A stretch of 64,000 nt of DNA from Paenibacillus sp. FSL M7-0420 (GTDB lineage: Bacteria; Bacillota; Bacilli; Paenibacillales; Paenibacillaceae): NCBI RefSeq assembly GCF_038002345.1, contig NZ_JBBOCJ010000001.1, positions 7,068,001 to 7,132,000 on the forward strand, read 5' to 3'. This document shows, piece after piece, positions 8,487 through 55,596 of the stretch. The first letter of the stretch is position 1; each line of letters begins with the position of its first letter. Position numbers and translations under genes: made by a program. The notes below the pieces were generated by a model. It ran no database searches. It was not told where the DNA came from and worked only from the letters and a program-made list of their open reading frames with translations.

Positions 8487-8892
8487 CATTGTGGTCGGTT
8501 TTTCGATTACATTTGGTCCGCGCGCCCCCATCCGCCGCATTGTAATCGGTTTTCCGATTACATTTGGTCCGCGCGCCCCCATCCGCCGCATTGTAGTCGG
8601 TTTTCCGATTACATTTGGTCCGCGCGCCCCCATCCGCCGCATTGTAGTCGGTTTTTCGATTACATTTGGTCCGCGCGCCCCCATCCGCCACATTGTAGTC
8701 GGTTTTCCGATTACATTTGGTCCGCGCGCCCCCATCCGCCGCATTGTGGTCGGTTTTTCGACTACATTTGGTCCGCGTGCGCCCATCCGCCGCATTGTAG
8801 TCGGTTTTTCGATTACATTTGGTCCGCACGCGCCCATCCGCCGCATTGTAGTCGGTTTTCCGACTACATTTGGTCCGCGCACCCCCATCCGC
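8487..8892. repeat. 51-bp hairpin repeat array 1, left part (8 units)
   Basis: Eight tandem units start at 8487, 8538, 8589, 8640, 8691, 8742, 8793 and 8844, exactly 51 bp apart. Each unit carries an inverted repeat such as TGTAATCGG-TTTT-CCGATTACA, then TTTGGTCCGCGCGCCCCCAT. Because 51 is a multiple of three, several frames stay open on both strands; these are artefacts. The eighth unit is cut by the IS element at 8892/8893. The array begins about 95 bp after the regulator stop. A degenerate 48-bp direct duplication (GGGCGGGGAC-GTTAGG at 8401, near-copy at 8449) precedes it. Confidence 0.95.
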
Positions 8893-8915
8893 GGTAGCGT
8901 CAAGAAGTTTGTGTA
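8893..8915. repeat. IS256-family left terminal inverted repeat
   Basis: Matches the right end (10284-10306, reverse complement) at roughly two thirds of positions, ending in the shared TTGTGTA block. Confidence 0.8.
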
Positions 8916-8960
8916 AATGAGTAGAAGTACCTCCCCGGGGTTACGGGTTGGGGGTGTAGT

Positions 8961-8997
8961 GTTTCTGGGGGGAGGGGGAACCCCGCCCCCCAGAAAC
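8961..8997 (-). terminator. strong GC-rich hairpin after transposase gene
   Basis: Arms GTTTCTGGGGGG and CCCCCCAGAAAC, extended by GGGG/CCCC across one mismatch, lie just past the transposase stop and inside the IS. A hairpin here could stop transcripts leaving or entering the element. No T-tract is seen. Confidence 0.6.
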
Positions 8998-9009
8998 TGG
9001 ATTCCTTAG

Positions 9010-10203
9010 TTACTCTTCTTCGGCTGTCGGCAACGAAGGGTAGCGGGCTTCATAGAGCTGGCTGAGCTTCTTTTTCACCGTGTCCACCCCAAAGCCAGGG
9101 GTCACTCGCTGCCCAAACCTTTCGTTGTAGCCTAACATCTCCAGATACACGATTTTTTCTGCCGCATCCATGTTGGTCAGACTGTTCATCGGCTTCAGAC
9201 GTTTGCGGATTTCCTTGTTCATTCGCTCAATGGGATTGGACGTGTAAATCGCTTTACGCATCGGTTCCGGGTACTTGTAGAACGTCAGTAACGTAGAAAG
9301 CTGCTCCTCCCAAGACCGCATTTCCTTCGGGTATAACGCATTCCACTTCGCTTTCACCGTGTCAAAGTTCGCCCGGGCCACGACCTCATCCGGTGCATCA
9401 TACACGGTCTTCAGGGCTTTAATTACATCGGTTTTGTGCTCCACCCGGATTTTGGGTAACGTGGCTCGTACTTTGTGCACCACACAATGCTGCACATCCG
9501 CCTGCGGGTAGGTTTCTTTAAAGGCCGCATCTAGCCCCGGCAGTCCATCAAATACACCCAGCAGCACTTCCTGGGCCCCGCGTGCGTACAGATCTTTGAG
9601 CACCTCCCGCCAGCCATTCGAGCTCTCTTGACCCCCCACGTAGAACCCCAGGATTTGACGCTGACCTTCTTCGTCGATTCCCATGGCAAAATAGACGACT
9701 TCACCCCGGACCGTGCCCCGTTTCAGCTTCACGTACAGCCCATCCAGGTAAATCACAGAGTAGCGCTTGCTCAGCGGACGTTTCTGCCACTGGTGAATGT
9801 CCTCCAGCACCGTAGCGGTGATGTTACTGATGGTGGTGGGCGAGTAATGGCTGCCGAACATGCTTTCAATAAATCGGGCCACGTCCCGGGTACCCATGCC
9901 GGATTTATACATCTGGATCACCGCCTCCTCCAGCCAGCCCTCCCGCCGCTGGTACGGTTCAAACATCTGAGTTTGAAAGAGACCCTGGCGGTCCCGGGGA
10001 ACCTGAAGATCCTCAATATGGCCGTATCTCGTGTGCAGATCCCGTGTATAGTATCCGTTACGGCTATTGCTGGCACCGGCTTCTTCACTCGCCATAAACC
10101 CTTGGATTTCGGCACGCAGGAGCGATTCCATATTCTCTTTCATGAAGTCTTTAACAAGTTTTTCAAATAGATTATTTAGCATATGTTCGGGTACAATAGT
10201 CAT
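9010..10203 (-). CDS. IS256-family transposase
   Basis: Full-length DDE transposase (397 residues) of the IS256/MULE-like group, which moves the element through a circular intermediate in known members. Visible catalytic residues: first Asp in YLDGLYVKL, second Asp in GVFDGLPGL, and the Glu in NPIERMNKEIRKR. The C-x4-H feature (QHCVVHKVR) lies between the second Asp and the Glu. The reading frame is intact, so the copy may be active. GGAG precedes the ATG at 10203. Confidence 0.96.
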   Translation of the reverse strand: MTIVPEHMLNNLFEKLVKDFMKENMESLLRAEIQGFMASEEAGASNSRNGYYTRDLHTRYGHIEDLQVPRDRQGLFQTQMFEPYQRREGWLEEAVIQMYKSGMGTRDVARFIESMFGSHYSPTTISNITATVLEDIHQWQKRPLSKRYSVIYLDGLYVKLKRGTVRGEVVYFAMGIDEEGQRQILGFYVGGQESSNGWREVLKDLYARGAQEVLLGVFDGLPGLDAAFKETYPQADVQHCVVHKVRATLPKIRVEHKTDVIKALKTVYDAPDEVVARANFDTVKAKWNALYPKEMRSWEEQLSTLLTFYKYPEPMRKAIYTSNPIERMNKEIRKRLKPMNSLTNMDAAEKIVYLEMLGYNERFGQRVTPGFGVDTVKKKLSQLYEARYPSLPTAEEE

Positions 10204-10283
10204 CGAGTAGGGCTCCTTCTTGGTGTTGTGGTAAACCCGAGGATACCCTACTTTTTTGTTGCCTGGCTAGGCTCCAAATTGTG

Positions 10284-10306
10284 GTACACAACTTACTTTA
10301 CGCCAT
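10284..10306. repeat. IS256-family right terminal inverted repeat
   Basis: Reverse complement begins ATGGCGTAAAG and contains TTGTGTA, matching the left end at 8893. The copy of CCCATCCGC follows at 10307. Confidence 0.8.
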
Positions 10307-10394
10307 CCCATCCGCCGCATTGTAGTCGGTTTTTCGATTACATTGGAGCCGATTGCCCCGCGCCTGCACATTGTGATCGGTTTTTCACATACAT
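10307..10394. repeat. 51-bp hairpin repeat array 1, right part
   Basis: Continuation of the array beyond the IS: unit 9 begins at 10318 and a diverged unit 10 at 10369, still 51 bp apart. Unit 10 has lost the normal right arm but can fold differently (TGTGA...TCACA). The 9-bp target duplication overlaps its first bases. Confidence 0.88.
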
Positions 10395-10466
10395 CTTTCC
10401 ACGCTTCCCGGCGGGCAGGCAGATGTCTTTGGCATACCGCCGCCGCGCCCACCATATCTGCCAAAC

Positions 10467-10505
10467 AAAAAGAGCGAGAGGGCTATATGCCTCCTCGCTC
10501 TTTTT
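10467..10505 (-). terminator. terminator of araBDA operon
   Basis: Arms AAAAAGAGCGAG and CTCGCTCTTTTT flank a short loop 38 bp after the araA stop. Read on the minus strand it ends in a T-run, as a rho-independent terminator should. Confidence 0.88.
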
Positions 10506-10542
10506 AACATTCACTCGCTGTGCACTTTACATGTAACTCTTA

Positions 10543-11967
10543 TTACTTAATAATCACGTATTCCAGACCCACCAGCTTGGCGTAGGTAACGATTTGGTCG
10601 GTAGTCAGGTTGAGCGATACGACCGTGTGGTGGCCGCCGCCGTTCTCGATCCAGGCTCTTACTCCGTCCTGGAAGTTCGGCTTCACCTGCCACAGTACGC
10701 GGGCTACCGGAAGATTCGGAGCCGGAACGGTAGGTTCGAAGGCAGTAACTTCGTTGATTAGCAGCTTGTAATGAGTGCCGAAGTCAGCCATCGATACCAC
10801 GACACCTTCGCCTGCCTTGCCGTCGAAGACGAGACGGGCCGGGTCTTCGCGGTCGCCGATTCCCAGCGGGGAGACAATGATCTTCGGCTGGTTGCTGGCC
10901 AGGCTCGGATCAACCTCCAGCATGTGGGACTGGAGAATCGCTTCCTGTCCGGCTGCCATTTCGTAGGTGTAATCTTCCATGAACCCGGTGTTCAGGTTGT
11001 GGCTCATCACCTTCATCAGGCGGTCCAGGGCCGCAGTCTTCCAGTCCCCTTCACCGGCGAAACCGTAGCCTTGGGCCATCAGGCGCTGAACAGCCAGACC
11101 CGGAAGCTGCTTCATGCCGTGCAGGTCCTCGAAGTTGGAGGTGAAGGCATTGTAGCCGCCTGCATCCAAGAAGCGCTTAAGGGCAATCTCATAGCTCGCC
11201 TGCACCTTCACGCTGGCTTCCCAGTCTTCCTTGCTGTAAGTGCCGTAATCAACGGCATACAGCTTGGTATATTCTGCGAACAGGGCATCAATCCCTTCCT
11301 GCTTCACTTCATTCACATAGGCTACCAGATCGCCGATACCGAAGTAGTCTACGGTCCAGCCGAACTGAATCTGAGCTTCTACCTTATCGCCTTCAGTAAC
11401 ACCAACATTGCGCATGTTGTCGCCGAAGCGGGCAACCTTGATATTGAAGCCTTCGTTATACGCTACGGCAACATCCATCCACTCGGCAATTTGCTTCTGG
11501 ACTTCCGGGCGTTCCCAGTATCCTACAACGACCTTATTCTGCTTCTTCAGACGGGCATTGATAAAGCCATATTCACGGTCACCATGGGCAGCCTGGTTAA
11601 GGTTCATGAAGTCCATGTCAATGGTTGCCCAAGGAATGCTCTCATTGTACTGGGTAGCCAGATGCAGCAGAGGCTTCTGCAGCAGCTTCGTGCCGCGAAT
11701 CCACATTTTGGCCGGGGAGAAGGTATGCATCCAGGTAATTACACCCGCAACCTCATCACGATAGTTCACTTCTTTCATGATGGAGGTGATTTTGTCTGCG
11801 CTAACGGCCAGATCCTGCAATACCAGCGGATAAGGAAGCACCCCGCTGTTGTTGAGCGCATCGGTCATTTCCTGGGCGTGAGCCTTCACTTCACCCAGCG
11901 CTTCATCTCCATACAGGTGCTGCGATCCTACTACGAACCAGAATTGCTTGTCGCTTACTGTTGACAT
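10543..11967 (-). CDS. araA: L-arabinose isomerase
   Basis: Converts L-arabinose to L-ribulose, first step of cytoplasmic arabinose breakdown. The protein has 474 residues, normal for the family, and is recognisable from FWFVVGSQHLYGDEAL at the start, GVITWMHTFSPAKMWI, and the late blocks GFAGEGDWKTAAL and GGGHHTVVS, which carry family metal-site residues. An in-frame ATG at 11976 directly abuts the AGAGG site, so the ATG at 11967, 9 bases after it, is preferred. Third gene of the araB-araD-araA transcript, 40 bp after araD. A rho-independent terminator follows. Confidence 0.97.
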   Translation of the reverse strand: MSTVSDKQFWFVVGSQHLYGDEALGEVKAHAQEMTDALNNSGVLPYPLVLQDLAVSADKITSIMKEVNYRDEVAGVITWMHTFSPAKMWIRGTKLLQKPLLHLATQYNESIPWATIDMDFMNLNQAAHGDREYGFINARLKKQNKVVVGYWERPEVQKQIAEWMDVAVAYNEGFNIKVARFGDNMRNVGVTEGDKVEAQIQFGWTVDYFGIGDLVAYVNEVKQEGIDALFAEYTKLYAVDYGTYSKEDWEASVKVQASYEIALKRFLDAGGYNAFTSNFEDLHGMKQLPGLAVQRLMAQGYGFAGEGDWKTAALDRLMKVMSHNLNTGFMEDYTYEMAAGQEAILQSHMLEVDPSLASNQPKIIVSPLGIGDREDPARLVFDGKAGEGVVVSMADFGTHYKLLINEVTAFEPTVPAPNLPVARVLWQVKPNFQDGVRAWIENGGGHHTVVSLNLTTDQIVTYAKLVGLEYVIIK

Positions 11968-12007
11968 ATCATTCATCCTCTTCTCTACTTGAATTGGTAA
12001 AAGTCAG

Positions 12008-12703
12008 TTACTTCTGTCCGTAATACGCATCCTTGCCGTGCTTGCGCAGATAATGCTTGTCCAGAATCCGCTGCGGCAGCTCCTCGGCGAAGGTGTTCAG
12101 CTGGCGGGCAAAGTGGTTCATCTTGGACACTTCCTCCAGCACCACACTGTTCATGACAGCAGCGTGGGCATCCTTGCCCCACGTGAACGGCGCGTGGCCC
12201 TTCAGCAGAACGCCGGGAATCGCCATCACATCCAGCCCCCGCTGTTCAAAAGTCTCAATGATCACATGCCCGGTCTCTGCTTCATAACCGCGGTCAATCT
12301 CTTCCTGTGTCAGGAACCGGGTGCACGGTACAGAACCATAGAAGGTGTCTGCATGTGTCGTCCCCATAACCGGAACATCCAGTCCGGCCTGAGCCCAGAT
12401 GGTTGCCCACGTGGAATGCGTATGCACGATGCCTCCGATCTCGGCGTAATGCTTGTAGAGTACAGCATGGGTCGCTGTATCCGAGGAAGGACGCATCTCT
12501 CCCTCCACCACATTGCCATCGAAGTCCACAACGACCATATCGCTCGGCTTCATCTTGTCATAGCTGACGCCGCTCGGCTTGATGACGAACAGACTGCTCG
12601 CCCGGTCCACCGCGCTCACATTGCCCCAGGTGTATTTGACCAGCCCGTGCTTAGGCAGCTCCAGATTGGCCTCATACACCTCTTCCTTCAGTTGCTCCAG
12701 CAT
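12008..12703 (-). CDS. araD: L-ribulose-5-phosphate 4-epimerase
   Basis: Class II aldolase/epimerase family protein (231 residues) that converts L-ribulose-5-phosphate to D-xylulose-5-phosphate. Zinc-binding histidines are visible in VHTHSTWA (His94, His96), with a later His in [10 protein letters not shown] context. The substrate loop [10 protein letters not shown] is present. The ATG lies 3 bp after the araB stop, with GGGGGGC inside the end of araB as the ribosome binding site, so araB and araD are coupled. Confidence 0.96.
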
Positions 12704-12706
12704 GTG

Positions 12707-14320
12707 TTAATGCCCCCCGTTCTCTACGAGATGATCTACAGCGGCCTGCTCAATCGCCAGACCCGCCGTGTAGCGTTCCATGAACAATTCAAAGCCCTTC
12801 ACATCCGCCGCAACCGGATGAATGGTCTCGCCTTCGATATCCTTGAAGACCTTCTGGTCGAGGAAATCATCCAGACGCTCCTGCTGCGCTCTGTTCTTCA
12901 TATAAGAAGCCAGAATCGCCATGCCCCACGCGCCGCCTTCTCCGGCTGTTGACATCACAGAGACCGGAACATTCATCGCAGCAGCCACGATTCTCTGTCC
13001 GACGACAGGCGTCTTGAACAAGCCGCCGTGCGCCAGAATGCTGTCGATGGACACCTGCTCCTTCAAGGTCAGAATATCCATCCCAATCTTCAGCGCGCCA
13101 AAAGCGGAGAACAGATGCGTCCGCATAAAGTTGCCCAGCGTGAACCGGCTCTCCGGCGAGCGGACAAACAGCGGCCGTCCCTTCTCCATCCCGGTGATGT
13201 TCTCACCTGAGAAATAGCCGTAGCTGAGCAGCCCGCCGCCATCGGCGTCCGCCTCCAGCGCTTTGTTGAACAGAACGCTGAATAACTTCGCCGGATCAGC
13301 CTTGAAGCCCATCGCCTCCGAGAATTCCCGGAACAAGCCGACCCAGGCATTGATATCGCTGGAGCAGTTGTTGGCATGCACCATCCCTACCGGACTGCCA
13401 TCCGGGGTAGTCACCATGTCGATCTCAGGGTATACCGCTGTAAGGTCCTTCTCCAGCACGATCATGGCGAACACGGAGGTGCCTACAGAGATATTACCGG
13501 TCCGTTTGCGCACACTGTTCGTAGCGACCATTCCGGTTCCGGCATCGCCCTCTGGAGGACAGAGCGGAATGCCTGCCAGCAGGTCCCCGGATTCATCCAG
13601 CAGTCTCGCTCCGGCTTCCGTTAACACCCCTGCCTGCTCGCCTGCAGCGTAGACCTTGGGCAGAAGATCACTCAGCTTCCAAGGGTAATTCTTAGCGGCA
13701 ATCAGCTCATCGAACTGGCTGACCATGGCCGGGTGGTAATCCTGTGAAGCTTCATCTATAGGGAAGACCCCGGAGGCATCGCCAATCCCGATCGCCTTGC
13801 TGCCGGTCAGCAGCCAATGGATGTATCCGCCCAGCGTCGTTACGAACGTTGCCTGCGGGACATGCTCTTCCCCGTTCAGAATCGCCTGATACAGGTGGGC
13901 AATGGTCCAGCGCTCCGGAATATTGAACTGGAACAGCTCTGTTAATTCCTTGGCCGCCGCACCGGTTGTAGCATTACGCCAGGTCCGGAACGGAACCAGC
14001 AGCTCACCCGCGCTGTCAAAGGCCATATATCCGTGCATCATTGCTGAGAATCCGATCGAACCGACAGTAGTAAGCGTAACCCCGTATTTCTGTGCAACCT
14101 CCTGCTTCATCTCGCGGTAAGCCGCTTGCAGCCCCTTGATGATATCGGTGAGGGGATACGTCCAGTACCCGCCTTCCAGCAGGTTCTCCCACTCGTAGCT
14201 TCCGGATGCAACCGTCTCGAACCCCTGATCAATCAGGACGGCCTTGATACGTGTGGACCCAAATTCGATACCCAGTGATGTCTCTCCCTTAAGTATCGCT
14301 TGCTTGATGTTCTGATCCAT
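12707..14320 (-). CDS. araB: L-ribulokinase (FGGY family, AraB-like)
   Basis: Phosphorylates L-ribulose using ATP. The 537-residue FGGY-family protein has the N-terminal ATPase motif [13 protein letters not shown] and the C-terminal signature region ([24 protein letters not shown]). It is shorter and more diverged than the AraB of enteric bacteria, so the exact sugar is inferred from position before araD and araA and next to araR. The ATG at 14320 or a GTG two codons earlier could start it; GAGAGGAG serves both. First gene of the operon, under an AraR-type operator. Confidence 0.9.
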
Positions 14321-14368
14321 GCCCACGTTACTCCTCTCTGAACCAAACTGTGTTACTTACGAATCTAA

Positions 14369-14383
14369 AGAATGCGCTTCCTT
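14369..14383 (-). promoter_or_regulatory. possible cre (CcpA) site for araBDA
   Basis: On the minus strand AAGGAAGCGCATTCT fits the cre consensus WTGNAANCGNWNNCW with one mismatch. It lies just downstream of the -10 box, where CcpA binding would block transcription when preferred sugars are present. Prediction by eye only. Confidence 0.45.
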
Positions 14384-14396
14384 TATGAACAGGTTT

Positions 14397-14425
14397 AGTA
14401 TATTTTTTGTTCGTACATTTGTCAA
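14397..14425 (-). promoter_or_regulatory. promoter of araBDA
   Basis: Minus strand: TTGACA (14420-14425), 17-bp spacer, TATACT (14397-14402). This is a near-perfect SigA promoter, placed 77 bp before the araB start. The AraR-type operator fills the spacer. Confidence 0.88.
14405..14421. promoter_or_regulatory. AraR operator at araBDA promoter
   Basis: TTTTGTTCGTACATTTG matches the known AraR box pattern (ATTTGTACGTACAAAT-like) apart from one core base. It sits between the -35 and -10 boxes, so bound AraR would exclude RNA polymerase until arabinose binds the repressor. Confidence 0.8.
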
Positions 14426-14530
14426 TGATAGATATAAGATATACCTACAAATTTACCGGGAAATCACCCGTATTTTACGCAAATCATGATATATGGTAGA
14501 CACTGGAGGATATTAAGCTTATATTCAAAC

Positions 14531-14551
14531 TATAATATGTACGTACAACTA
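14531..14551 (+). promoter_or_regulatory. araR -10 box and AraR operator
   Basis: TATAAT at 14531-14536 overlaps ATATGTACGTACAACTA (14535-14551), a second AraR-type palindrome with the core GTACGTAC. The layout suggests autoregulation. The -35 region is not clear. Confidence 0.7.
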
Positions 14552-14583
14552 CATTAATTTTTCTACTCTATATAAGAACAACT

Positions 14584-15702
14584 ATGAAAGAAGTGACCCG
14601 TGTGAGAACCAAGTACCAGATCATCTTCGATGAACTCAAAAGCAATATCCTGTCCGGCACCTACAGTGTGGGCGAACAAATCCCTACGGAATCTGCACTG
14701 CAGGAGATGTACGGCGTCAGCCGCCAGACTGTGCGGAAGGCCATTCTGGAGCTGTCCAACGAAGGGTTTCTGCGGAGCGAGAAGGGCTCGGGCACCTATG
14801 TCAGCCACCAGTTCCGGTCCAAATCCGGGAATGGCGCGGGCAAGCGGACCATCGGCGTAATAACCACTTACCTCTCCGATTATATTTTCCCGTCCATTAT
14901 CCGGGGGATTGAAGGCAGGCTCAATGAGGACAACTATTCACTGCTGCTCGCCAGCACCAATAATGATGTGGCCCAGGAGAAAAAGGCGCTGGAGATGATG
15001 CTGTCCTTCGGGGTAGACGGGCTGATCATCGAGCCTACGAAGAGTAACCTGTACAACCCGAACATTGCCTACTACCTGTCGTTTAAGGAGCAGGACGTTC
15101 CGTTCATTATGATTAACGCTTACTATGAAGAGCTGGAGGTGCCGTTCTTCTGTCTGGATGATGTACAGTCCAGCTATCTGGCGACCCGGGAGCTGATCTC
15201 GAAGGGGCATACCCAGATCGGAATTATTGCCAAAATGGACGATCTCCAGGGCAAATACCGCATGAAGGGCTATATCAAGGCGCTCGGCGAGGCCAAGCTG
15301 CGCTTCCACCCGGAGCAGGTGCTCTCCTTCGATACGGAATCCAAGCGTGACCTGTCGGCGAACCTCAAGCAGTTCCTGAAGGATAACCGGGAGGTACTGA
15401 CAGCCCTTGTGTGCTATAACGACGAGGTGGGACTCGAAGTGGTTAACGTATGCAAGCAGCTGGAACTTTCTATTCCAGAGGAGCTGTCGATCATCGGCCA
15501 GGACAATTCCTATATCGCCAAGAACGCTGGCATCAAGCTGACGACCTTAACCCACCCGCAGGAGCAGATGGGCCGGGATGCGGCCGAATGGGTCATTAAG
15601 AAGCTCCAGGGTAAAAAAGATCTGAAGAACAGCACCTACTATCTGCCTGAGCTGGTAGAGGGGGAGACGGTGCGGGTGCTGGAGCCAGCTCCTGCGGAAT
15701 AG
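14584..15702 (+). CDS. araR: arabinose-responsive repressor AraR
   Basis: DNA-binding repressor (372 residues): N-terminal GntR winged helix at residues 1-75 (GEQIPTESALQEMYGVSRQT) joined to a LacI/periplasmic-binding-protein effector domain (GVITTYLSDYIFPSIIRGIE onward). This fusion is the known AraR architecture. It is divergent from araBDA with two operators in between. The ATG at 14584 has no good ribosome binding site; a GTG at 14602 follows AAAGAAGTG and is an alternative start. Arabinose is the expected inducer. Confidence 0.92.
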   Translation: MKEVTRVRTKYQIIFDELKSNILSGTYSVGEQIPTESALQEMYGVSRQTVRKAILELSNEGFLRSEKGSGTYVSHQFRSKSGNGAGKRTIGVITTYLSDYIFPSIIRGIEGRLNEDNYSLLLASTNNDVAQEKKALEMMLSFGVDGLIIEPTKSNLYNPNIAYYLSFKEQDVPFIMINAYYEELEVPFFCLDDVQSSYLATRELISKGHTQIGIIAKMDDLQGKYRMKGYIKALGEAKLRFHPEQVLSFDTESKRDLSANLKQFLKDNREVLTALVCYNDEVGLEVVNVCKQLELSIPEELSIIGQDNSYIAKNAGIKLTTLTHPQEQMGRDAAEWVIKKLQGKKDLKNSTYYLPELVEGETVRVLEPAPAE

Positions 15703-15734
15703 GGTAGTCCGCCCGGAAATAGAAGACAGAGACA

Positions 15735-15787
15735 AACAGCCCTGCCGCTTCACGGCCTGTAACGGTCATGAAGCGGTCAGGGCTGTT
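15735..15787. terminator. bidirectional terminator
   Basis: Arms AACAGCCCTG-CCGCTTCA and TGAAGCGG-T-CAGGGCTGTT, with one bulge, lie between the convergent araR and the lipoprotein gene and can serve both. Confidence 0.82.
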
Positions 15788-15818
15788 CTTATTCAATCCC
15801 GCTGAACCGGCTCAATGT

Positions 15819-16562: not shown

Positions 16563-16618
16563 AAGTAATCCCTCCATGAATGTACGCGATGGACGCGTTG
16601 TTTGTTTGGTATGAGGTT

Positions 16619-16672
16619 AGTATACGAAAAGCATTTATTAGTGTAATAACAGAGTTGTATCATTCTTGTAAC
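16619..16672 (-). promoter_or_regulatory. promoter with three 11-bp repeats
   Basis: On the minus strand, GTTACAAGAAT, GATACAACTCT and GTTATTACACT follow one another (16640-16672), an 11-bp phasing typical of OmpR/PhoB-type regulator boxes. The last repeat overlaps a weak -35 (ATTACA), 17 bp before a -10 TATACT (16619-16624). Probable activator site for the regulator at 18075. Confidence 0.55.
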
Positions 16673-16677
16673 GCATA

Positions 16678-18057: not shown

Positions 18058-18074
18058 CAGCCGGGTAGCGTATT

Positions 18075-32891: not shown

Positions 32892-32958
32892 GTACCGTCC
32901 TAACAGGTGAAGGATGCTGGTGCTTTTCTCGTCGTCCGCTTGTAAGGAGCAGGATTGT

Positions 32959-33126
32959 TGCACTTTTTGCAGGATTCCTTTCAAAAAGATACTGGCTGGA
33001 GTACAATGTTGCATTATTTGCACAAATTTCGAAATTTAGAGCGAGTTAGCGCTGGATTTGTTGCATTTCGTGCAGGATTTCAGGCATATACCGCTTCTAT
33101 GAGGTAGCATTGTTGCACTTTCTGCA
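32959..33126. repeat. hairpin repeat array 3, 51-52 bp period
   Basis: Four copies of TGCA-N5-TGCA with T-rich centres begin at 32959, 33010, 33062 and 33114, spaced 51, 52 and 52 bp. Shared context is TGTTGCA...TGCAGGATTTC; the sequence between copies is diverged. It fills most of the 32892-33293 gap between convergent genes; no coding frame is credible here. Confidence 0.75.
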
Positions 33127-33216
33127 GGATTTCTCTATAACTGTTACTTGCTGTGGAGCATGGGGTCCTTCTCTCAGCGCAGCAGTACCCATCGATATTC
33201 GGTTTTCGCATACATT

Positions 33217-46414: not shown

Positions 46415-46427
46415 GACTCCTTCACCT

Positions 46428-47294: not shown

Positions 47295-47331
47295 GTTGCT
47301 CCCTCCCTGTACTCAAGAATAGGCTCAACTG

Positions 47332-47370
47332 TTTAAGAACAAGTCGGGTAAAGATTAAAACTTTCTTAAA
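47332..47370 (-). promoter_or_regulatory. candidate regulator box upstream of seven-gene operon
   Basis: Minus strand: TTTAAGAAAGT followed directly by TTTAATCTTTA (47349-47370), two 11-bp direct repeats as bound by OmpR-type regulators, and a further TTCTTAAA at 47332 forming an inverted partner. Located 55-76 bp before the first gene; the operon encodes such a regulator. Confidence 0.5.
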
Positions 47371-47417
47371 TTCTCTGCGCAGCAGCACATTCGGACCGAT
47401 CGCCCTCTCGCCGGCAG

Positions 47418-47455
47418 CAAAAAAGCCGCAAACGGATGCTTCATCCATTCGCAGC
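47418..47455 (-). terminator. terminator of the sigma/anti-sigma pair
   Basis: On the minus strand GCTGCGAATGGATG and CATCCGTTTGCGGC pair (with wobbles) around AAG, then seven T. Lies 22 bp after the membrane partner gene. Confidence 0.85.
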
Positions 47456-47477
47456 TAATTCGTGTAGCGCAAACTCA

Positions 47478-48428: not shown

Positions 48429-48982
48429 AGGTGAACACCCTCCTGGTCTAAATGAATTCTAAGCTTGTTCCGGGTCCTGAACAGGCTGGACTTCACCTTA
48501 CTGCTGCTCATATCGAACCTGCCAGCGAGGGATTCTATGGAATCCGCATACCAATACCGCCTGATGAATAAATTTCGTGTGCCCTCCTCCAGCCCGTACA
48601 GAAATTCGTTGATCAACCGCGCGGTTTCACCGGCAGCAATCTCCGTTTCCACCGTCTCTGCTGCGGGCAGGCAGTCCTCCAACTCCTCCAGAATCACCTC
48701 GAACTGGCGGCTCCGCTTCTTGGCTGTATTATAACCATACTTGTCGAGCGCGATATTGCGGGTGATCCGCCCCAGGAATACCGGCAGCCTTCTCGGCTGG
48801 TTAGGCGGTATAGCGTTCCATGCAGCGAGGTATGTATCGTTCTCACACTCTTCGGTATCGGAAGGGTTAGCAACAATGTTTCTGGCGATCGCCCGGCAGT
48901 ACGCGCTGTATTTGTTCCGGGTTTCCGTGATGGCCTGCTGTGAGCGCTGCAAGTATAGCTGAATGATTCCCTGATCTTCCAT
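48425..48982 (-). CDS. ECF-type RNA polymerase sigma factor
   Basis: Sigma-70 family protein of 185 residues: region 2 (NPSDTEECENDTYLAAWNAI, then FLGRITRNIALDKY) and region 4 (YADSIESLAGRFDMSSSKVK, SSLFRTRNKLRIHL). The ATG at 48982 follows AAAGGAG; an upstream extension lacks a site. Cotranscribed with the overlapping membrane partner, probably self-regulated. Confidence 0.92.
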   Translation of the reverse strand: MEDQGIIQLYLQRSQQAITETRNKYSAYCRAIARNIVANPSDTEECENDTYLAAWNAIPPNQPRRLPVFLGRITRNIALDKYGYNTAKKRSRQFEVILEELEDCLPAAETVETEIAAGETARLINEFLYGLEEGTRNLFIRRYWYADSIESLAGRFDMSSSKVKSSLFRTRNKLRIHLDQEGVHL

Positions 48983-49069
48983 CTGCTGTTTCTCCTTTGG
49001 TATCCTCTTATCTATATAGTAGAGAATTCCGGGTGCCGGTTGCACTTATACGCTAATCTTTTTTTACGC

Positions 49070-49114
49070 AAAAAATCCCGGAACATAAGCATATCACTGC
49101 TTACACACCGGGAT
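49070..49114 (-). terminator. terminator of GH28-type gene
   Basis: Minus strand: ATCCCGG...TAAGCA...TGCTTA...CCGGGAT, a two-part stem followed by TTTTTT. Confidence 0.9.
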
Positions 49115-49133
49115 AGAGATAGTAATCTATAGG

Positions 49134-52100
49134 TTAACCGAGGACCGGCGGGTCCTGCTCATCCGTGCTGTCATCCTCCATGTCTGCCGGTTTCAGGGTT
49201 ACTCTAATGTCCACAATCAGGGTATCCGTCAGCTCCGTATCGGCCCAGGCTGAGCCGTCCCATATCTGCTTGCGGTAGATAACGGTTATCTTGTAATCAC
49301 CTACAGCAGACGGAACATATGCAGCCTGATACACCTCACCCGTTACGGTGAAGACGCCTGCCATACCTTCCTCTGTGGAGCTCCAGGCCTCCGGATGATA
49401 ACGTTCATCTCCGGGGTTGGCAGGTACCAGGCTCTGGTTATAGCCTTCGGCCGTCAGGGTAAGTGTTTCACCTGCAAAAGGGCTGCCCAGGCTAACGCTG
49501 AGCCGGTTGCCTTCAGGCGTAACCGTTTCATACACATCGAGGGTTACCGTCTTAAGCGCACTGGCCGTCACCTTTTGTATCCCTGTAACACGGGCATTAT
49601 CGAACACCGTATTCTGGGAGGTTGTTCGGAAGCCAATCTTACCTGCAGTTAATTCCGTTTGCGGGTTCGTCCATTGGAGCTTCAACTGGCCGTCCACAAA
49701 GCCTAGAATTCTGTTCCCTTTGATGACCGCCTTCAGCGTATACCACTGGCCCGCAGCCGCATCGGCGAAGAGGGTACTGGACACGGGGGTCAGCGTTCCG
49801 TTTACCGCCTTGAACAGCTCCAGCTTCTTGTCGTTGACATTGATCCGGTACATGTAATAGTTGTTGGCGTCCTGCACCCGGAAGAGAATGCCGGCATTGG
49901 CATTCGCGATGGGAACCTTCATCTTGGCTTCAAAAGCAATATCCTGCCATGAATCCCCGGCTGTAATGAGCCCCGTTGAATTTCCTTTTGTCTGGATCAG
50001 GGCTTTAGTACTGCCATCTGTGGTTACACTCCAGGTCCCGCTGGCAGCCGTCCAGCCCGTCGTATTCCCATCCTCAAAGTTATCCGTGAACCGGACAGAA
50101 TTCGGATTGGCATCAATCGGAGTCTCGTCCACATCTGTAACCTGAATCATGAAGCTCTTCTCCAGCGACAGGCCATTGGCGTCAATACTCTTCACCCGGA
50201 TGCTGTAGCTGCTCTTCGCTTCATAATCCGGCGTAGTGCGGAGGATCAGCCTGTCTCCCTGCGGGGCAATGGAGAAGCTGCTGTTATCGGCGTCACCTTG
50301 CCCGGGGACCAGCGCATAAGTAAAGGTCTGACCCGCATCCGGGTGGGCTGTAGTGAAGGTGCCCACTACACCGCCTGGAGTAGTCAGCTCTGGCACCTGG
50401 GTAGCGCTGAGTGTAATATCAGTGGGCGGATTGTGAATGGCGGTCACCTTGGCATCGTCATACCAGACCCCGGCTGAAGTGGTGCGGAAGCCGATTCCGC
50501 CCGAGGTTAATTCATTGACCGGATTGGTCCATGTTGTCTTCAGCACTCCGTCCACATACCCTTTGATAGTGTTGCCCTGGACCGTCGCCTTAAGGGTATA
50601 CCATTGGTTCTTAACAGGCACGAACGAGGTAGTCGAGACCTGCGTCAACGTTCCGGCTACAGCCTTATAGAGCTGCAGCTGGCTTGTGCTGGCATCGATC
50701 CGGTACATATAGAAGTTGTTCTGATCCTGCACCCGGAAGACAATGCCTGCGTTCTCGCTTCCATTAATGAGAGGCAGTCTGGCTCTGGCTTCATACGTGT
50801 AATCTGTCCAGGATGTACCGGCCTTGGCGGTAATCAGCGCCGTCGTGGTCTGGCTGGTGGACAGCACCCGGTTCCCTGTTCGATCGGTTACCGCCCAACT
50901 GTTGGCACCTGAAGCCACGGTCCAATCCGGGAGCAGCCCGGAGGTGAAGTGATCGCTGAACCAGGCCTGATCCGTATTCGCGAAGACGACTCCGCTTACA
51001 TTCTCATTCTTGATGCTCACCTTCAGATCACTGAGATTCTTCGCCAGCGTTCCTTTGACCACCACATTTTCAAAAGTAACCCCGTTCACCATCCCGCCTC
51101 TGGTGGGATTGCCCTGAATAGGGGAATCTCCTCCCGTCTCGCGGACATTGATGTTCCGGAGAATGACATTGCTTACATCACCGGATGTACTGGTGGAGAC
51201 CCGCAGCCAGTAATTGCCGAACTGGTTGATGCCCACCCGTTCAATATCGATATTCTCGAAGGTCACATCCTGGGCCCAGCCTTCGACCGGGAGCGGATTC
51301 TCTGTATAGGCATGATCCACCAGCAGCGCCCGCGCGCTTTGATAGACATACGAATTGCGGATGGTTACGCCAATCTGCGGCGTGCATATGCCCATCCCCA
51401 GCTTGAAGGCGGCGCAGCGTGTCCAGGCGAAGCAGTCCTCGAAGACCACATTCTCCAGATGCTCGATGGCTCCCGGCCAGTCCTTGGACATTCCTTTCTG
51501 CGGCCAGGTCTTGGTGGAGAAGGTATCGTCATCCGAGATGGCAAGGGCATGCTTCACCAGCACGTTCTGGCTCTCATTAATGTCGATGGCATCATCCTCA
51601 AGCGTAAATAAATCCTGGTATCCCTTATAGTTGGTGATGGTCACGTTATCGGAGCGGACCACCAGGAACGCCCAGAAGCCACCGTCCCGCAGGGTTAACC
51701 CGTCGAACTTGAAGTTGCTGGTCGCCATCGGCACCACCAGGTTATTGATGAACCCTTCTCCCTGCTTATGGGTTGCAGGCGGGTTGGTCATCTTGCGTTT
51801 GCGCATTTCTATCCCTTTGCCGTCAATCGTTCCGCGCCCCCGCATGGTGATATTCACGGAATTGGTGGCGGTGCGGATGAAATAGGTTCCATCCGAGATC
51901 GAATCCTTGCGGAAGTCATTCCGGTAGTCCTCGCCCCGGCCTGTACCGACGATGACTGCACCCCCGGCCAGATAGAACGTAACATTGCTTTTGAGGGTCA
52001 GGTTGCTGCTCTTATATACGCCCGCCGGAATATAGACGATACCGCCTCCGGCCTGATTGGCAGCATCAATCGCCTGCTGGATGGCGCCCGAGGTGATCGT

Positions 52101-52676
52101 TGCACCCGTCTTGTCGGCGTTGTACGGTGCAGCGGTCACATTGTAGATTCCCGGGCCGGAGGACGCGGGGATGTCAGTCTCCAGCGGATCGGCGGCGATC
52201 ACGAGTCTTTTGCGGCGCTTGTCCGGGTCCTTCTCATTCGGGTCTTCGTTCGCAGGTGCATTAATGTCGACGATCACATAGGTAGAGGCCGACAGGGTGA
52301 AGGTCAGCTTGTTGCCGTTGACCGTTCCCGTGATGTTCTTGGCCAGCGGGCTGATCGAATACGAGGTGATTGGCTTGTCTGCCGTCACCTCAAGGCTAAT
52401 GGTTCCTTCAAAGGAGAACTGGGCATAATCATAGTCGGGTAAATACTTGACGACGGGGACCGCCTCATTGTTCACCTTCAACGAGTAAACAGAAGACGGA
52501 GTATAGATAGACGGCATCGGGTAATTCTGGATGGTTGCCGGGCCAGCGGCGGCCACCTGCGGCACCGGTTCCGTTCCCGGTTCCGGTTCAGCCGCACCGG
52601 CGGTCTGTGGCGGGATGAACCCCGTGAATGCGACGGCAAGCACCAGCAGCAATCTCAATACTTTGCGAGTAAGCAT
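49134..52676 (-). CDS. secreted modular GH28-type beta-helix protein
   Basis: Secreted protein of 1180 residues. Signal peptide to about 33 (TAGAAEP). A right-handed beta-helix of glycoside hydrolase family 28/pectate-lyase-superfamily type spans about 180-570 (NADKTGATITSGAIQQAID, YIPAGVYKSSNL), with acidic pairs in EDDAIDIN (about 363) and SDDDTF (about 385) as candidate catalytic residues. Two similar CBM66/DUF1080-like modules (about 575-740 and 850-1010, each with AGI(V/L)FRVQDxNN(F/Y)YMYRI) flank a cadherin-like repeat. The tail is unknown. Probably attacks pectin-type polymers. GGAGGAGG precedes the ATG at 52676, and a cre site lies upstream. Confidence 0.85.
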   Translation of the reverse strand: MLTRKVLRLLLVLAVAFTGFIPPQTAGAAEPEPGTEPVPQVAAAGPATIQNYPMPSIYTPSSVYSLKVNNEAVPVVKYLPDYDYAQFSFEGTISLEVTADKPITSYSISPLAKNITGTVNGNKLTFTLSASTYVIVDINAPANEDPNEKDPDKRRKRLVIAADPLETDIPASSGPGIYNVTAAPYNADKTGATITSGAIQQAIDAANQAGGGIVYIPAGVYKSSNLTLKSNVTFYLAGGAVIVGTGRGEDYRNDFRKDSISDGTYFIRTATNSVNITMRGRGTIDGKGIEMRKRKMTNPPATHKQGEGFINNLVVPMATSNFKFDGLTLRDGGFWAFLVVRSDNVTITNYKGYQDLFTLEDDAIDINESQNVLVKHALAISDDDTFSTKTWPQKGMSKDWPGAIEHLENVVFEDCFAWTRCAAFKLGMGICTPQIGVTIRNSYVYQSARALLVDHAYTENPLPVEGWAQDVTFENIDIERVGINQFGNYWLRVSTSTSGDVSNVILRNINVRETGGDSPIQGNPTRGGMVNGVTFENVVVKGTLAKNLSDLKVSIKNENVSGVVFANTDQAWFSDHFTSGLLPDWTVASGANSWAVTDRTGNRVLSTSQTTTALITAKAGTSWTDYTYEARARLPLINGSENAGIVFRVQDQNNFYMYRIDASTSQLQLYKAVAGTLTQVSTTSFVPVKNQWYTLKATVQGNTIKGYVDGVLKTTWTNPVNELTSGGIGFRTTSAGVWYDDAKVTAIHNPPTDITLSATQVPELTTPGGVVGTFTTAHPDAGQTFTYALVPGQGDADNSSFSIAPQGDRLILRTTPDYEAKSSYSIRVKSIDANGLSLEKSFMIQVTDVDETPIDANPNSVRFTDNFEDGNTTGWTAASGTWSVTTDGSTKALIQTKGNSTGLITAGDSWQDIAFEAKMKVPIANANAGILFRVQDANNYYMYRINVNDKKLELFKAVNGTLTPVSSTLFADAAAGQWYTLKAVIKGNRILGFVDGQLKLQWTNPQTELTAGKIGFRTTSQNTVFDNARVTGIQKVTASALKTVTLDVYETVTPEGNRLSVSLGSPFAGETLTLTAEGYNQSLVPANPGDERYHPEAWSSTEEGMAGVFTVTGEVYQAAYVPSAVGDYKITVIYRKQIWDGSAWADTELTDTLIVDIRVTLKPADMEDDSTDEQDPPVLG

Positions 52677-52706
52677 AAATACCTCCTCCAGATCGATTTG
52701 GCTCCA

Positions 52707-52721
52707 GGCAACCGCTTTCAA
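52707..52721 (-). promoter_or_regulatory. cre site upstream of GH28-type gene
   Basis: Minus strand TTGAAAGCGGTTGCC fits the cre consensus with only the last base off, 31 bp before the start codon. Suggests repression by CcpA on preferred sugars. Confidence 0.6.
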
Positions 52722-52773
52722 TTTCCAGCAGGATACATAGAGTCATTCCTTACTATAATCCCGGGCCAAAAAG

Positions 52774-52801
52774 AAAGGAGGGTGGCAAACCCACTCTCCA
52801 G
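52774..52801 (-). terminator. terminator of FlxA-like gene
   Basis: Minus strand GGAGAGTGG and CCACCCTCC pair around GTTTG, then TTTCTTTTT. Lies 50 bp after the gene. Confidence 0.72.
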
Positions 52802-52851
52802 GGACACAATTATACTGTTCTGCACCATCTGTTAACCTTAGATGTTATGCA

Positions 52852-53226
52852 TTAGATGAATGCTTCGAAACGCCCCTCTGCATTCACCGTCGCCGTCCGC
52901 GGATCGGTCTGGCCGATCCCCTTCAGGAACCCCTTCCACTCGGTCCTCATCAGCGGACCCTGGACATTCTGGAAGGCTGTGCTTACGTCGGTGGAAGTAC
53001 TGCTGCCGGCTTTGCGTGCAAGCTGAACCTCCAGCAGCCGGATCTGCCGCTGCAGCTGCTCACGGCGGTAGGGCACGGCCTCGCTGCTCTGTCCCGCGTT
53101 CACCCGGTCCAGCTCCAGCATCAGCCGATCCCGCTGCTTCTCCAGTGAGCTGACATCGCTCTGTGTGCCGCCGTAGGCCATGATGACCTGTACCGGACTG
53201 ATTCCTGATACACTCTGTCCTATCAT
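52852..53226 (-). CDS. FlxA-like small coiled-coil protein
   Basis: Protein of 124 residues with a charged coiled coil at about 25-72 (SSLEKQRDRLMLELDRVNAG, QLQRQIRLLEVQLARK) and no membrane segment. It resembles the FlxA-like family, whose role is unclear. GGAGGG precedes the ATG. Monocistronic, with its own terminator. Function unknown. Confidence 0.7.
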   Translation of the reverse strand: MIGQSVSGISPVQVIMAYGGTQSDVSSLEKQRDRLMLELDRVNAGQSSEAVPYRREQLQRQIRLLEVQLARKAGSSTSTDVSTAFQNVQGPLMRTEWKGFLKGIGQTDPRTATVNAEGRFEAFI

Positions 53227-53413
53227 GATCCATCCCTCCAGTCCTTGGGTCCCGCCGCATTCCGGATGATCGTACCTGTAACGTTTCCGCGCCGGGATTG
53301 CTGTGGCTACAGTTAAAGCTTCTATATCTGTCTATTACCCTGCCTCTTCCGGTATGACTACAGCTTAGCCGCCGGATGACTCTAAAATCTATCAAAAAAT
53401 CCCAAAAAGACAA

Positions 53414-53461
53414 TTTACATAATATGTTATATATGGTATCCTCATGGTGGATGCGCTTACA
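53414..53461 (+). promoter_or_regulatory. promoter and possible cre of esterase gene
   Basis: TTTACA (53414-53419), 17-bp spacer, TATCCT (53437-53442). GTGGATGCGCTTACA at 53447-53461 matches cre with two mismatches and would cover the transcription start. The remaining 53227-53561 gap has no gene. Confidence 0.42.
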
Positions 53462-53561
53462 TTTTATGCCGTAAAAGAAGAGCTCTGCTTCATAGAGGGA
53501 CATAAGAGGACGGATGAATCAGGTTTGGCCTAATCTATTTAAACTAAGGAGGATATGTGAA

Positions 53562-54467
53562 ATGAAGAAGATTATGACTCGTATTGCCGCTTTGGCTCTG
53601 ACGGCAGCACTGATGCTGCCCGCTATGTCCTATGCCTCGCCGGTAGCCGAAGAGCAGGAGTTGAGCCTCTCTGCGGATGCCGCTGCGGCTATAACCAGTA
53701 CCATCACTCCCGCTCCGCAAGGCTATGACGGATACCGCAATAATATTCCCCACGGCAACGTACAGCAGATTTCTTATTATTCGACTACCGTAGGTAAGTC
53801 AAGAAACGCAATGGTATACACCCCTCCGGGCTATACCCCTTCCAAGACCTACAATGTTCTCTACCTGCTGCACGGCATCGGCGGGGATCAGAACGAATGG
53901 CTGAACGGGATGAATCCGCGCAATATCCTGGACAACCTGTACTCCGAGAACAAGCTTGCGCCGATGATCGTGGTGTTCCCGAACGGCCGCGCGATGGCGG
54001 ATGACCGCCCGATCGGCGATATTTATGCACCGGACAAGGTAGCCGCCTTCGAGCGGTTTGAATTCGACCTGATCAATGATCTCATTCCTTATGTCGATTC
54101 CCACTTCCCGGTATACAAAAACAAGCAAAACCGCGCCCTGGCCGGCTTATCCATGGGCGGCGGCCAGACGCTGAACTTCGGGCTCAAGCATCTGGACAAG
54201 TTCTCCTGGATCGGCGCGTTCTCCTCTGCTCCGAATACGAAGCCGGCCTCACAGCTGATCACGAATCCGGCGCAGACGGCCAGCCAGCTGAAGCTGCTCT
54301 GGCTCTCCTGCGGTGCTTCGGACGGCCTGCTTTACATCAGCCAGAACTTCCATAACAGCCTAACCAGCATGAATGTTCCGCATCTGTGGTATCTGGATGT
54401 CGGCGGACATGAAGGCAAGGTCTGGAGCAGCGGACTGTACCAGTTCTCGCAGCGGATCTTCAAGTAA
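53562..54467 (+). CDS. secreted CE1-type esterase
   Basis: Secreted alpha/beta hydrolase of 301 residues. Signal peptide to about residue 27 (MSYASP). The substrate start NVLYLLHGIGGDQNEW forms the oxyanion region, the nucleophile is Ser196 in GLSMGG, and the late His283 lies in GGHEGK. This is the carbohydrate esterase family 1 pattern (feruloyl or acetyl-xylan esterases and tandem-domain xylanase esterases). The ATG at 53562 follows AAGGAGG. The exact ester is not readable; a plant cell wall substrate is likely given the neighbours. Confidence 0.88.
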   Translation: MKKIMTRIAALALTAALMLPAMSYASPVAEEQELSLSADAAAAITSTITPAPQGYDGYRNNIPHGNVQQISYYSTTVGKSRNAMVYTPPGYTPSKTYNVLYLLHGIGGDQNEWLNGMNPRNILDNLYSENKLAPMIVVFPNGRAMADDRPIGDIYAPDKVAAFERFEFDLINDLIPYVDSHFPVYKNKQNRALAGLSMGGGQTLNFGLKHLDKFSWIGAFSSAPNTKPASQLITNPAQTASQLKLLWLSCGASDGLLYISQNFHNSLTSMNVPHLWYLDVGGHEGKVWSSGLYQFSQRIFK

Positions 54468-54480
54468 TTTAGGTCATAGG

Positions 54481-54523
54481 CTGCCCTCTCCCGATCCGTT
54501 ATGGTTGGGGGAGGGCAGTTTTT
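54481..54523 (+). terminator. terminator of esterase gene
   Basis: CTGCCCTCTCCC pairs with GGGGGAGGGCAG, followed by TTTTT. Confidence 0.93.
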
Positions 54524-54558
54524 CTTGATAAGGCCCGGCCAACTTTAAGGAGGGCAAT

Positions 54559-55320
54559 ATGGTGAATGCGATAACGGATTACTATGATTCCTATGATGAG
54601 GAGGGAAGACTGTCCAGGGATAACGGTCATCAGATCGAATGGATCACAACGATGGCCTACTTCAAGAAGCTGTTTAAGCCGGAAGCCTACATTCTTGACG
54701 GCTGCGCAGGGACAGGGAATTACTCTTTTCCACTGGCAGAATTGGGGCATAAGGTCGTAGCCGGAGATCTCGTTCCTCATCATGTAGATATCCTAAGAGA
54801 GAAGCAGAGCAAGCATCCGGTATTGGCCGATATGTATGTAGGAAGCATCACGGATCTATCCCGTTTTGACAGTGAAACCTTTGATGTTGTTTTGAACATG
54901 GGAGCCTTTTATCATATCGGCAATGAAGACCGGCAGCTGGCCATGACCGAATGCCTGCGCGTGCTGAAGCCGGGAGGGCTGCTGGCAGTCTCCTATATTA
55001 ACAATGCAGCCGTTTCGTTATTAAGCATAGGCGATAGGTTAGGGAATATGGATGATGTGCTTACCTGGCATGCCAACCAGACGAAAGATGGTCTATTCCT
55101 ACATATGCCCCCCTTGGAAATGGAACGCATAGCAGCGGCCTATCACACAGAGCTTGTGGCCCATATTGGAACAGACGGCGTCGGTTATCTGTTTGCCAAG
55201 CACATCAATGAGGCACAGCAAGAAGATTTTGAACGCTGGCTTCAGCTTCATCTGCGGACCTGTGAGGACAAGAGTCTGCTCGGGTATAGTTTGCATGGAC
55301 TGGCTATTTTGCGAAAATGA
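54559..55320 (+). CDS. class I SAM-dependent methyltransferase
   Basis: Protein of 253 residues with Rossmann motif I YILDGCAGTGNYSF, motif II region KVVAGDLVPHHV, and motif IV/V FDVVLNMGAFYHI and RVLKPGGLLAVSY. The substrate is not identifiable. AGGAGGG precedes the ATG. Array 2 of the 51-bp repeats begins just after its stop. Confidence 0.92.
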   Translation: MVNAITDYYDSYDEEGRLSRDNGHQIEWITTMAYFKKLFKPEAYILDGCAGTGNYSFPLAELGHKVVAGDLVPHHVDILREKQSKHPVLADMYVGSITDLSRFDSETFDVVLNMGAFYHIGNEDRQLAMTECLRVLKPGGLLAVSYINNAAVSLLSIGDRLGNMDDVLTWHANQTKDGLFLHMPPLEMERIAAAYHTELVAHIGTDGVGYLFAKHINEAQQEDFERWLQLHLRTCEDKSLLGYSLHGLAILRK

Positions 55321-55332
55321 TAGAAATAGACC

Positions 55333-55596
55333 TACCATTCGGCCCACGCGCCCAAGCAACGCCGAATGTGATCGGTTTTTCGATTACATTGGGCCCACGC
55401 GCCCACACAACGCCGAATGTGATCGGTTTTTCGATTACATTCGGCCCACGCGCCCACACAACGCCGAATGTGATCGGTTTTTCGATTACATTCGGCCCAC
55501 GCGCCCACACAATGCCGAATGTGATCGGTTTTTCGATTACATTGGGCCCACGCGCCCACGCAACGCCAAATGTGATCGGTTTTTCGATTACATTTC
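55333..55596. repeat. 51-bp hairpin repeat array 2 (5 units plus partial)
   Basis: Inverted repeats TGTGATCG-N6-CGATTACA begin at 55367, 55418, 55469, 55520 and 55571, exactly 51 bp apart, joined by (C/G)GGCCCACGCGCCCACACAACGCC-type linkers (shown in part). A partial unit precedes them. Same hairpin core as array 1, but a different linker. Lies between the convergent methyltransferase and Nudix genes. Open frames here on both strands are artefacts of the multiple-of-three period. Confidence 0.93.

Follow-up and report, generated by a model that had tools for sequence, protein, structure and literature searches.

The 64,000-nt stretch of Paenibacillus sp. FSL M7-0420 analyzed here (contig NZ_JBBOCJ010000001.1, positions 7,068,001 to 7,132,000), hereafter the window, contains three arrays of tandemly repeated hairpin units, each placed in a convergent gap immediately downstream of a plus-strand stop. 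An earlier note on this DNA had drawn attention to these arrays as differing in sequence and sharing a period of 51-52 bp. Here, we describe a computational analysis that places them in a Paenibacillus superfamily of tandem hairpin arrays comprising at least six sequence types (A, A', B, C, D, and E). The orientation of the arrays tracks replication, not genes, and this is their strongest regularity. The arrays of the window and the features that adjoin them are as follows.

8486..8892, plus strand: first block of array 1, eight 51-bp type-A units with the stem TGTAATCGG/CCGATTACA (Tandem Repeats Finder (TRF), unit scan)
10305..10395, plus strand: second block of array 1, two type-A units past the insertion sequence (IS), units at 10326-10395 (unit scan, sequence)
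55336..55594, plus strand: array 2, five 51-bp type-A units with extended stems of 14-15 bp (TRF, folds)
32958..33131, plus strand: array 3, type-E units TTGCA-n-TGCAGGATT with spacings of 103 and 52 (motif positions; kept in three relatives)
33193..33216, plus strand: single degenerate A/A'-like unit TATTCGGTTTTCGCATACATT adjoining array 3, like a unit in the second closed genome, G008 (read from the sequence)
8893..10308, strand not assigned: IS256-like insertion sequence in a linker of array 1, with ends GGTAGCGTCAAG and CTTTACGCCATCC (boundaries compared over four copies)
9010..10203, minus strand: transposase open reading frame (ORF) of the IS256-like element, 397 aa (Pfam Transposase_mut, E=6.7e-102)
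6768..8393, plus strand: response regulator / AraC-type gene upstream of array 1, a lagging-strand gene on this replichore (Pfam)
10468..10505, strand not assigned: terminator-like hairpin between array 1 and araA (read from the sequence; its minus-strand part also reported by a terminator scan)
10543..11976, minus strand: araA (L-arabinose isomerase), the second gene flanking array 1, a leading-strand gene (Pfam)

TRF recovered the first block of array 1 (8486-8892) as 8.0 copies of a 51-bp unit with a 93% match and array 2 (55336-55594) as 5.1 copies of 51 bp with a 95% match. Array 3 is degenerate and has no row in the TRF scan of the window; its element ends lie at 32976, 33079, and 33131, giving a spacing of 103 (two periods) and then one of 52, and a degenerate unit can be read inside the 103-bp spacing. 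Type-E elements elsewhere in the sampled stretches are spaced mostly by 51, 52, and 103. All three arrays and their 51-52 bp period are therefore real, the first two by TRF and the third by its element positions. Array 1, which the earlier note had placed at 8487-10394, does have units at both ends but is not continuous: because the IS256-like element separates its two blocks, this is an IS-split array and not a 1.9-kb array. As read from the sequence, each of the window's three gaps also has a terminator-like hairpin, with the array on the side facing the lagging gene. The one terminator-like match inside array 1 (8738-8750) is built on the T-run of a loop, and an Rfam search of the window returned nothing above gathering thresholds. 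A 51-bp unit is divisible by three and so preserves reading frame, and array 1 (8431-8916) is accordingly traversed by several ORFs of 132-147 aa; they are probably spurious and could get annotated as hypothetical proteins.

A fixed period shared by unrelated sequence types

Arrays were sampled in the window's own genome (G000) and in G008. The G000 sample consists of 53 blocks (1,630,794 bp), and because these were mostly picked for holding type-A arrays, absolute array rates are inflated; comparisons of gap type and orientation are not built in by this choice. Genes were called ab initio, and the G000 array set was taken from TRF with overlaps removed and periods of 48-55. It contains 84 arrays, with a period of 51 in 75, 52 in 7, and 50 in 2; by family there are 58 A, 11 A', 9 B, 4 C, 1 D, and 1 E; array 3 of the window is an additional E array beyond these 84. 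An array consists of about 2-19 units in tandem. The stretches not picked for arrays yielded 7 TRF arrays in 512,794 bp, or 13.7 per Mb. When the sampled stretches of G000 and G008 were taken together, 81 TRF rows had a period of 51 and 23 a period of 52, and no other period between 40 and 65 had more than three rows. The motif TCGGTTTTYCGATTACATT occurs 461 times in G000 at up to two mismatches; the same pattern read backwards does not occur.

Type-A matches occur in 45 of 100 genomes of the genus, ten or more of them in 22, and the backwards control is nearly empty apart from G074 (12+5). A genome scan, which allowed periods of 36-66, returned at least 120 loci; the 80 titles listed of these 120 were all Paenibacillus, and spacings among the matches listed were 51 (350), 52 (21), 50 (3), and 53 (1), plus multiples. 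Paired E units were found in 11 of the 100 genomes with periods of 41-63 allowed, all listed pairs being spaced by 51-53. The C motif is present in 17 of 245 family genomes, that is, 17 of 32 from the window's genus and 0 of 213 from other genera. Genomes with 0-1 type-A matches were sampled over 100 kb each, revealing one 51-bp array in G017 and none in G047, G026, and G053. A literature search, which reached few subscription papers and so does not prove absence, found no description of such arrays in Paenibacillus.

Array orientation follows replication

GC skew and DnaA boxes place the origin of G000 near 7.28 Mb and its terminus near 3.74 Mb. The same evidence rules out coordinate 0 as the origin, so the array at 7333415 is no longer an exception to the pattern described below. 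Of 165 8-kb windows of G000, 159 show the skew sign of their replichore. With the replichore border set at 3,787,500, one polarity is shared by 76 of the 84 arrays (75 of 84 with the GC-skew border); this border was set within the interval where array polarity flips, and the array at 3786404 thus counts as rule-following by construction. The same polarity is kept by 31 of 33 arrays in convergent gaps, by 37 of 42 between two leading-strand genes, and by 6 of 6 between two lagging-strand genes. These last two counts indicate that genes do not set polarity.

Individual units behave likewise: rule-following matches number 406/432 for type A, 54/64 for A', 43/47 for B, 27/27 for C, and 24/24 for D, and 37/56 for the loose type-E pattern, which takes in chance matches. 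Isolated type-A units follow the rule in 7 of 8 cases, and 454 neighbor pairs are of one family and on the same strand vs 8 neighbor pairs on opposite strands. The pattern is not confined to G000. In G008, 18 of 18 stretches match local GC skew, and loci of other genomes from the genome scan agree in 104 of 114 cases, or in 83 of 88 where local skew is clear.

The polarity switch falls in the interval 3786705-3789377, whereas GC skew peaks near 3.743 Mb, roughly 45 kb away (3743000-3787000); no dif site was found that would decide between the two positions. A Firmicutes dif consensus had no match in the sampled stretches, and a further search gave a single weak and unconvincing one at 3821299. 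Two clusters of mixed polarity, at 892425-892960 (L050) and 5669529-5669931 (L087), have an inverted block directly adjoining rule-following units, as if part of the array had been flipped.

Arrays occupy gaps away from gene starts

Arrays are present in 77 of 799 sampled gaps, of which 33 are convergent, 42 codirectional, and 2 divergent. Occupancy is 33/138 in convergent, 42/511 in codirectional, and 2/150 in divergent gaps, the codirectional gaps dividing into 37/420 leading-leading and 5/91 lagging-lagging. Convergent gaps are enriched over codirectional ones (Fisher p=3.2e-6), and the array rate drops roughly three- to five-fold with each gene start bordering a gap. This is roughly the pattern expected if arrays survive only where promoters are unharmed. 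Placement between convergent genes after a plus-strand stop, which the earlier note had inferred from the window, thus holds there and is not general, codirectional gaps being the majority of those that bear arrays. Motif matches are almost exclusively intergenic (A 432/432, A' 64/64, B 47/48, C 27/27, D 24/24).

Placement relative to terminators was examined for rule-following arrays in leading-leading gaps and for convergent gaps free of wrong-polarity arrays. In the former, a leading-direction terminator precedes the array in 24 of 34 cases and follows it in 3 of 34. In the latter, lagging-direction terminators were found in 10 of 30 with arrays and in 38 of 95 without. The idea that arrays stand in for the terminators of lagging genes is not supported; such terminators are not rarer where arrays are present, which argues against simple terminators. 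Types A-D also do not have a T-run directly after the stem, the trait of an intrinsic terminator.

Fold and spacing are kept while the letters change

The units of types A-D follow one plan, a palindrome whose length comes out as 20 or roughly 26 nt, with a TT or T-rich center and ATT at its 3' edge, followed by a linker. Directly after the stem come ATT and the linker, and the T-run sits in the loop. Unit length is 51 or 52 bp and is constant across sequence-unrelated families. In type A the linker is 24 nt long in 314 of 340 units; between arrays, these linkers have a mean identity of 50% (34% when shuffled) and are C-rich (46% C, 23% G), with a C-G skew of 0.33 vs 0.095 in the intergenic background.

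Pairing within the stem is maintained by compensating changes. Across 30 distinct stem cores, the paired fraction of stem cells is 84.4% vs 56.0% after shuffling, and the covariation score is 0.754 vs 0.288; neither value was reached in 500 shuffles. Slid registers all score far lower, and all nine stem pairs have changes on both sides, a count that about 60 of 500 shuffles also attain. The C stem, for example, appears in relatives as GGG/CCC, GGT/ACC, and GGC/GCC. The two strands are not equivalent: over 199 array consensuses, whose independence is limited by the orthologues among them, the array-sense strand has 132 G.T vs 24 A.C cells, with a similar ratio in convergent gaps (15:5) and in leading-leading ones (15:6). 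When units are folded as RNA, array sense gives the stabler hairpin in 286 of 326, and array 2 folds with z=-9.3 in the array sense vs -3.4 on the opposite strand. By column counts over the 199 consensuses the 5' stem foot is A-[A/T]-T-G, and types B-D start with ATTCAG.

Neighboring A and A' arrays keep register, lying 51-53 apart in 16 of 18 neighbor pairs. A common register for all families in one gap was rejected, since B with C and A with B are mostly out of register (e.g. 72-74 bp). What is constant, then, is unit length, fold, T-rich center, and polarity; the letters vary. A common organization rather than chance tandem duplication, as the earlier note had argued, is borne out by the fixed period, the stem covariation, and the convergent enrichment, and in the sampled stretches convergent gaps do hold an excess of arrays and periods of 51-52 dominate rather than vary freely.

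Most array sites recur across species

From one species to another most array sites persist, with differences in the number of copies and, in some cases, in sequence type. When both flanks of an array in a relative mapped into G000 stretches, an array was present in the same gap in 44 of 49 cases, an upper value given that arrays guided the choice of these stretches, in which 77 of 799 gaps are occupied. The reverse comparison gave agreement in 45 of 49 pairs; of the remaining four, one is a G008 site with a single unit. Orthologous pairs of type-A arrays have the same orientation in 39 of 40 cases. The exception, the array at 5669571, is opposite to a P. piscarius locus (L157) and agrees with a P. 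silagei locus (L166), and for this reason looks like a local inversion in one lineage. At some sites the sequence type differs between species, with C vs A' and A vs E both seen.

The araA-side site of array 1 illustrates these changes. Seven of 12 relatives have A units there, in numbers of 1, 1, 2, 5, 7, 10, and at least 15 and always in identical orientation, and five of 12 have no A units; among these genomes, the flanks in G008 and G048 differ and may mark another gap. In G050 (L321) the single unit at this site has, as judged by eye, an apparent insertion of about 100 bp in its loop that splits GGTTT from TTTTTTCGC. At the site of array 3, the E pattern is kept in three of eight relatives (103+51 in G085; 103+52 in G083 and G043), and a fourth has scattered E matches.

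Arrays of unrelated sequence as targets of an IS256-like element

The IS256-like element of array 1 is flanked by a 7- to 9-bp target duplication around 8884-8892 and 10307-10315. G000 contains four full-length copies, and all four lie inside arrays (A, A', E, and A', the E assignment made by eye). Across eight genomes we examined 22 full-length copies, further copies existing beyond these loci. Of the 22, 15 lie in 51/52-bp arrays by a fixed threshold (identity of 62% or more across 45 nt at a lag of 49-54, with the IS removed), although three of the 15 are marginal (0.62-0.67; best shuffle up to 0.58). Two more lie in E arrays by eye, bringing the total to 17/22, and five are unclear. The copies within arrays sit in linkers of sequence-unrelated arrays in several species (L280, L281, L282, L289-L317). 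A possible further hairpin type, resembling TTAGTGTACCTTTTTCCACTTA, adjoins IS copies at lags of 51-52 in G048 (L295, L308, L317) and also appears in the araA-side gap of G094 (L327).

Discussion

We tentatively favor the view that the arrays form a superfamily of replication-coupled tandem hairpin elements in Paenibacillus, similar to repetitive extragenic palindromic (REP) sequences and parked in safe intergenic sites. Because one strand tolerates G.T pairs and folds better, the functional form would be a hairpin folded on that strand, which corresponds in sense to the nascent lagging strand as well as to head-on RNA. Units may be gained and lost in whole-unit steps during lagging-strand synthesis, polarity would be established at the fork as units are deposited or amplified, and arrays would be retained only at positions that spare both promoters and terminators. 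The fixed unit length and the targeting by the IS suggest that the array is recognized, by a protein or a DNA structure, as something phased and not as sequence. A bolder extension, which we regard as possible though rather unlikely, is that one length-setting, fork-directed machine multiplies or polices unrelated hairpins in 51-52 bp steps, and that the IS256-like element evolved to recognize the product of this machine rather than a sequence.

Several observations weigh against replication-coupled elements. Two of the seven arrays from stretches not picked for arrays violate the polarity rule. The idea that arrays in the wrong orientation should be shorter or more decayed was not upheld: the eight wrong-way arrays of G000 are not shorter (median 5.1 vs 5.5 copies, p=0.34), nor are four wrong-way arrays elsewhere (6.1 vs 5.05, p=0.27), and orientation-dependent expansion is thus not directly seen. 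The inverted array at 5669571 is shared with the P. silagei locus and is still homogeneous, a sign that wrong polarity can be tolerated. Among the five measures of stem covariation, two (how many pairs vary on both sides and how many types of pair occur) were reached by about 60 of 500 shuffles. Slippage alone keeps a period but does not explain why 51-52 bp is shared by unrelated families.

The principal alternative, which we think unlikely but consider the strongest rival, is that the arrays form a barrier to head-on transcription, in which a string of RNA hairpins stops or destroys fork-opposing transcripts, from lagging-gene read-through or antisense, before they enter a leading-strand gene, thereby reducing replication-transcription conflict and antisense RNA. 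The sense of the array is indeed that of head-on RNA in convergent, leading-leading, and lagging-lagging gaps, G.U-type pairs are favored on this strand, and type-A linkers are rich in C (46%), although they retain 23% G. Divergent gaps, where lagging genes start, are nearly free of arrays (2/150), and the three arrays of the window all lie on the lagging gene's side of the terminator-like hairpin. The arrays do not replace ordinary terminators, however, which in the lagging direction occur in 10/30 convergent gaps with and 38/95 without arrays, and no transcript is known to cross the arrays in leading-leading gaps. The G.T asymmetry does not increase in gaps where transcription from a lagging gene would cover the array; because this tolerance is equal in convergent and leading-leading gaps, a replication process acting on DNA is favored over one acting on RNA.

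It is less likely still that the arrays are polar chromosome marks, units read by a duplex-binding protein (a translocase, a condensin loader, or another nucleoid protein) as origin-to-terminus signs phased every five helical turns. Like the FtsK-orienting polar sequences (KOPS) and the SpoIIIE recognition sequences (SRS), the arrays are oriented from origin to terminus on both replichores and switch near the terminus (3786705-3789377). A spacing of 51-52 bp, or about five turns, is kept while sequence drifts, and the IS256-like element finds arrays of unrelated sequence. In contrast, KOPS are single 8-bp sequences (PMC2680272), and the arrays are long, with no linear motif common to the families seen. 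Compensation in the stems and one-sided G.T tolerance point to a folded strand rather than a duplex site, neighbors of different families are often out of register (e.g. 72-74 bp), and no dif-like site was found beside the polarity switch.

Likeness to REP sequences and to bacterial interspersed mosaic elements (BIMEs) raises the very doubtful alternative of mobile elements whose polarity reflects insertion by a Y1 transposase, such as a REP-associated tyrosine transposase (RAYT), into the single-stranded lagging-strand template. REP and BIME elements are short, high-copy intergenic palindromes that lie mostly in convergent or codirectional gaps and form tandem clusters (PMC3733652, PMC2817692, PMC1525189), and they share with the arrays G-T pairs in stems and a role as IS targets (PMC3733652, PMC1525189). 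The arrays differ in being head-to-tail and set in polarity by replication, whereas BIMEs alternate in orientation (PMC2817692), and in having a period fixed at 51-52 and stems that are entirely different between families. A REP-type GTAG or CGTC foot was not found at the stems of the 199 array consensuses. Y1 transposases (PF01797) occur in 56 of 100 genus genomes, including G000 with three matches, but no match was found in the array-rich G083 and G094 or in G008; a RAYT as partner was rejected, its presence being uncorrelated with array load. Moreover, the lagging-strand template has the weaker-folding sense, and most mapped sites are common to species and not scattered. Neutral variable-number tandem repeats that contain palindromes by chance would account for the wide copy-number variation at the araA-side site and for the avoidance of gene starts, as by any junk, but are already disfavored to the point of being scarcely credible by a 51-52 bp period across unrelated sequences, replication polarity, stem covariation, and transposon targeting across families.

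Other repeat systems offer partial likenesses. The repeats of Borgs also form head-to-tail arrays with many sequences per genome and some units that fold; according to PMC9879509, 43-65% of them lie within ORFs, and they were described there as fast-evolving and as arising independently. Unlike these, the arrays have a single dominant period and intergenic motif units, and most mapped sites are common to species. Palindromic repeats at regular spacing also recall clustered regularly interspaced short palindromic repeats (CRISPR). Here the intervening 24-25 nt is itself repeated within each array, and variable spacers are absent, the whole 51-bp unit repeating with a consensus match of about 80-97% in most arrays; the earlier note was correct in setting CRISPR aside. 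The roles it had proposed, as chromatin or supercoiling buffers or as sites for processing convergent transcripts, are supported by none of our tests, and its account of a shared organization, which stands, had missed the orientation relative to replication and the prevalence of codirectional gaps.

If the fork sets both polarity and unit length, the arrays would constitute a natural, countable record of fork-coupled amplification in several species, and would allow a direct test of hairpin expansion and contraction on the nascent lagging strand in a bacterium. The landing of an IS in sequence-unrelated arrays offers separate evidence on which feature the cell or the transposase recognizes. 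The exchange of stem letters with pairing and unit length kept would represent an unusual case of selection on shape and spacing rather than on letters.

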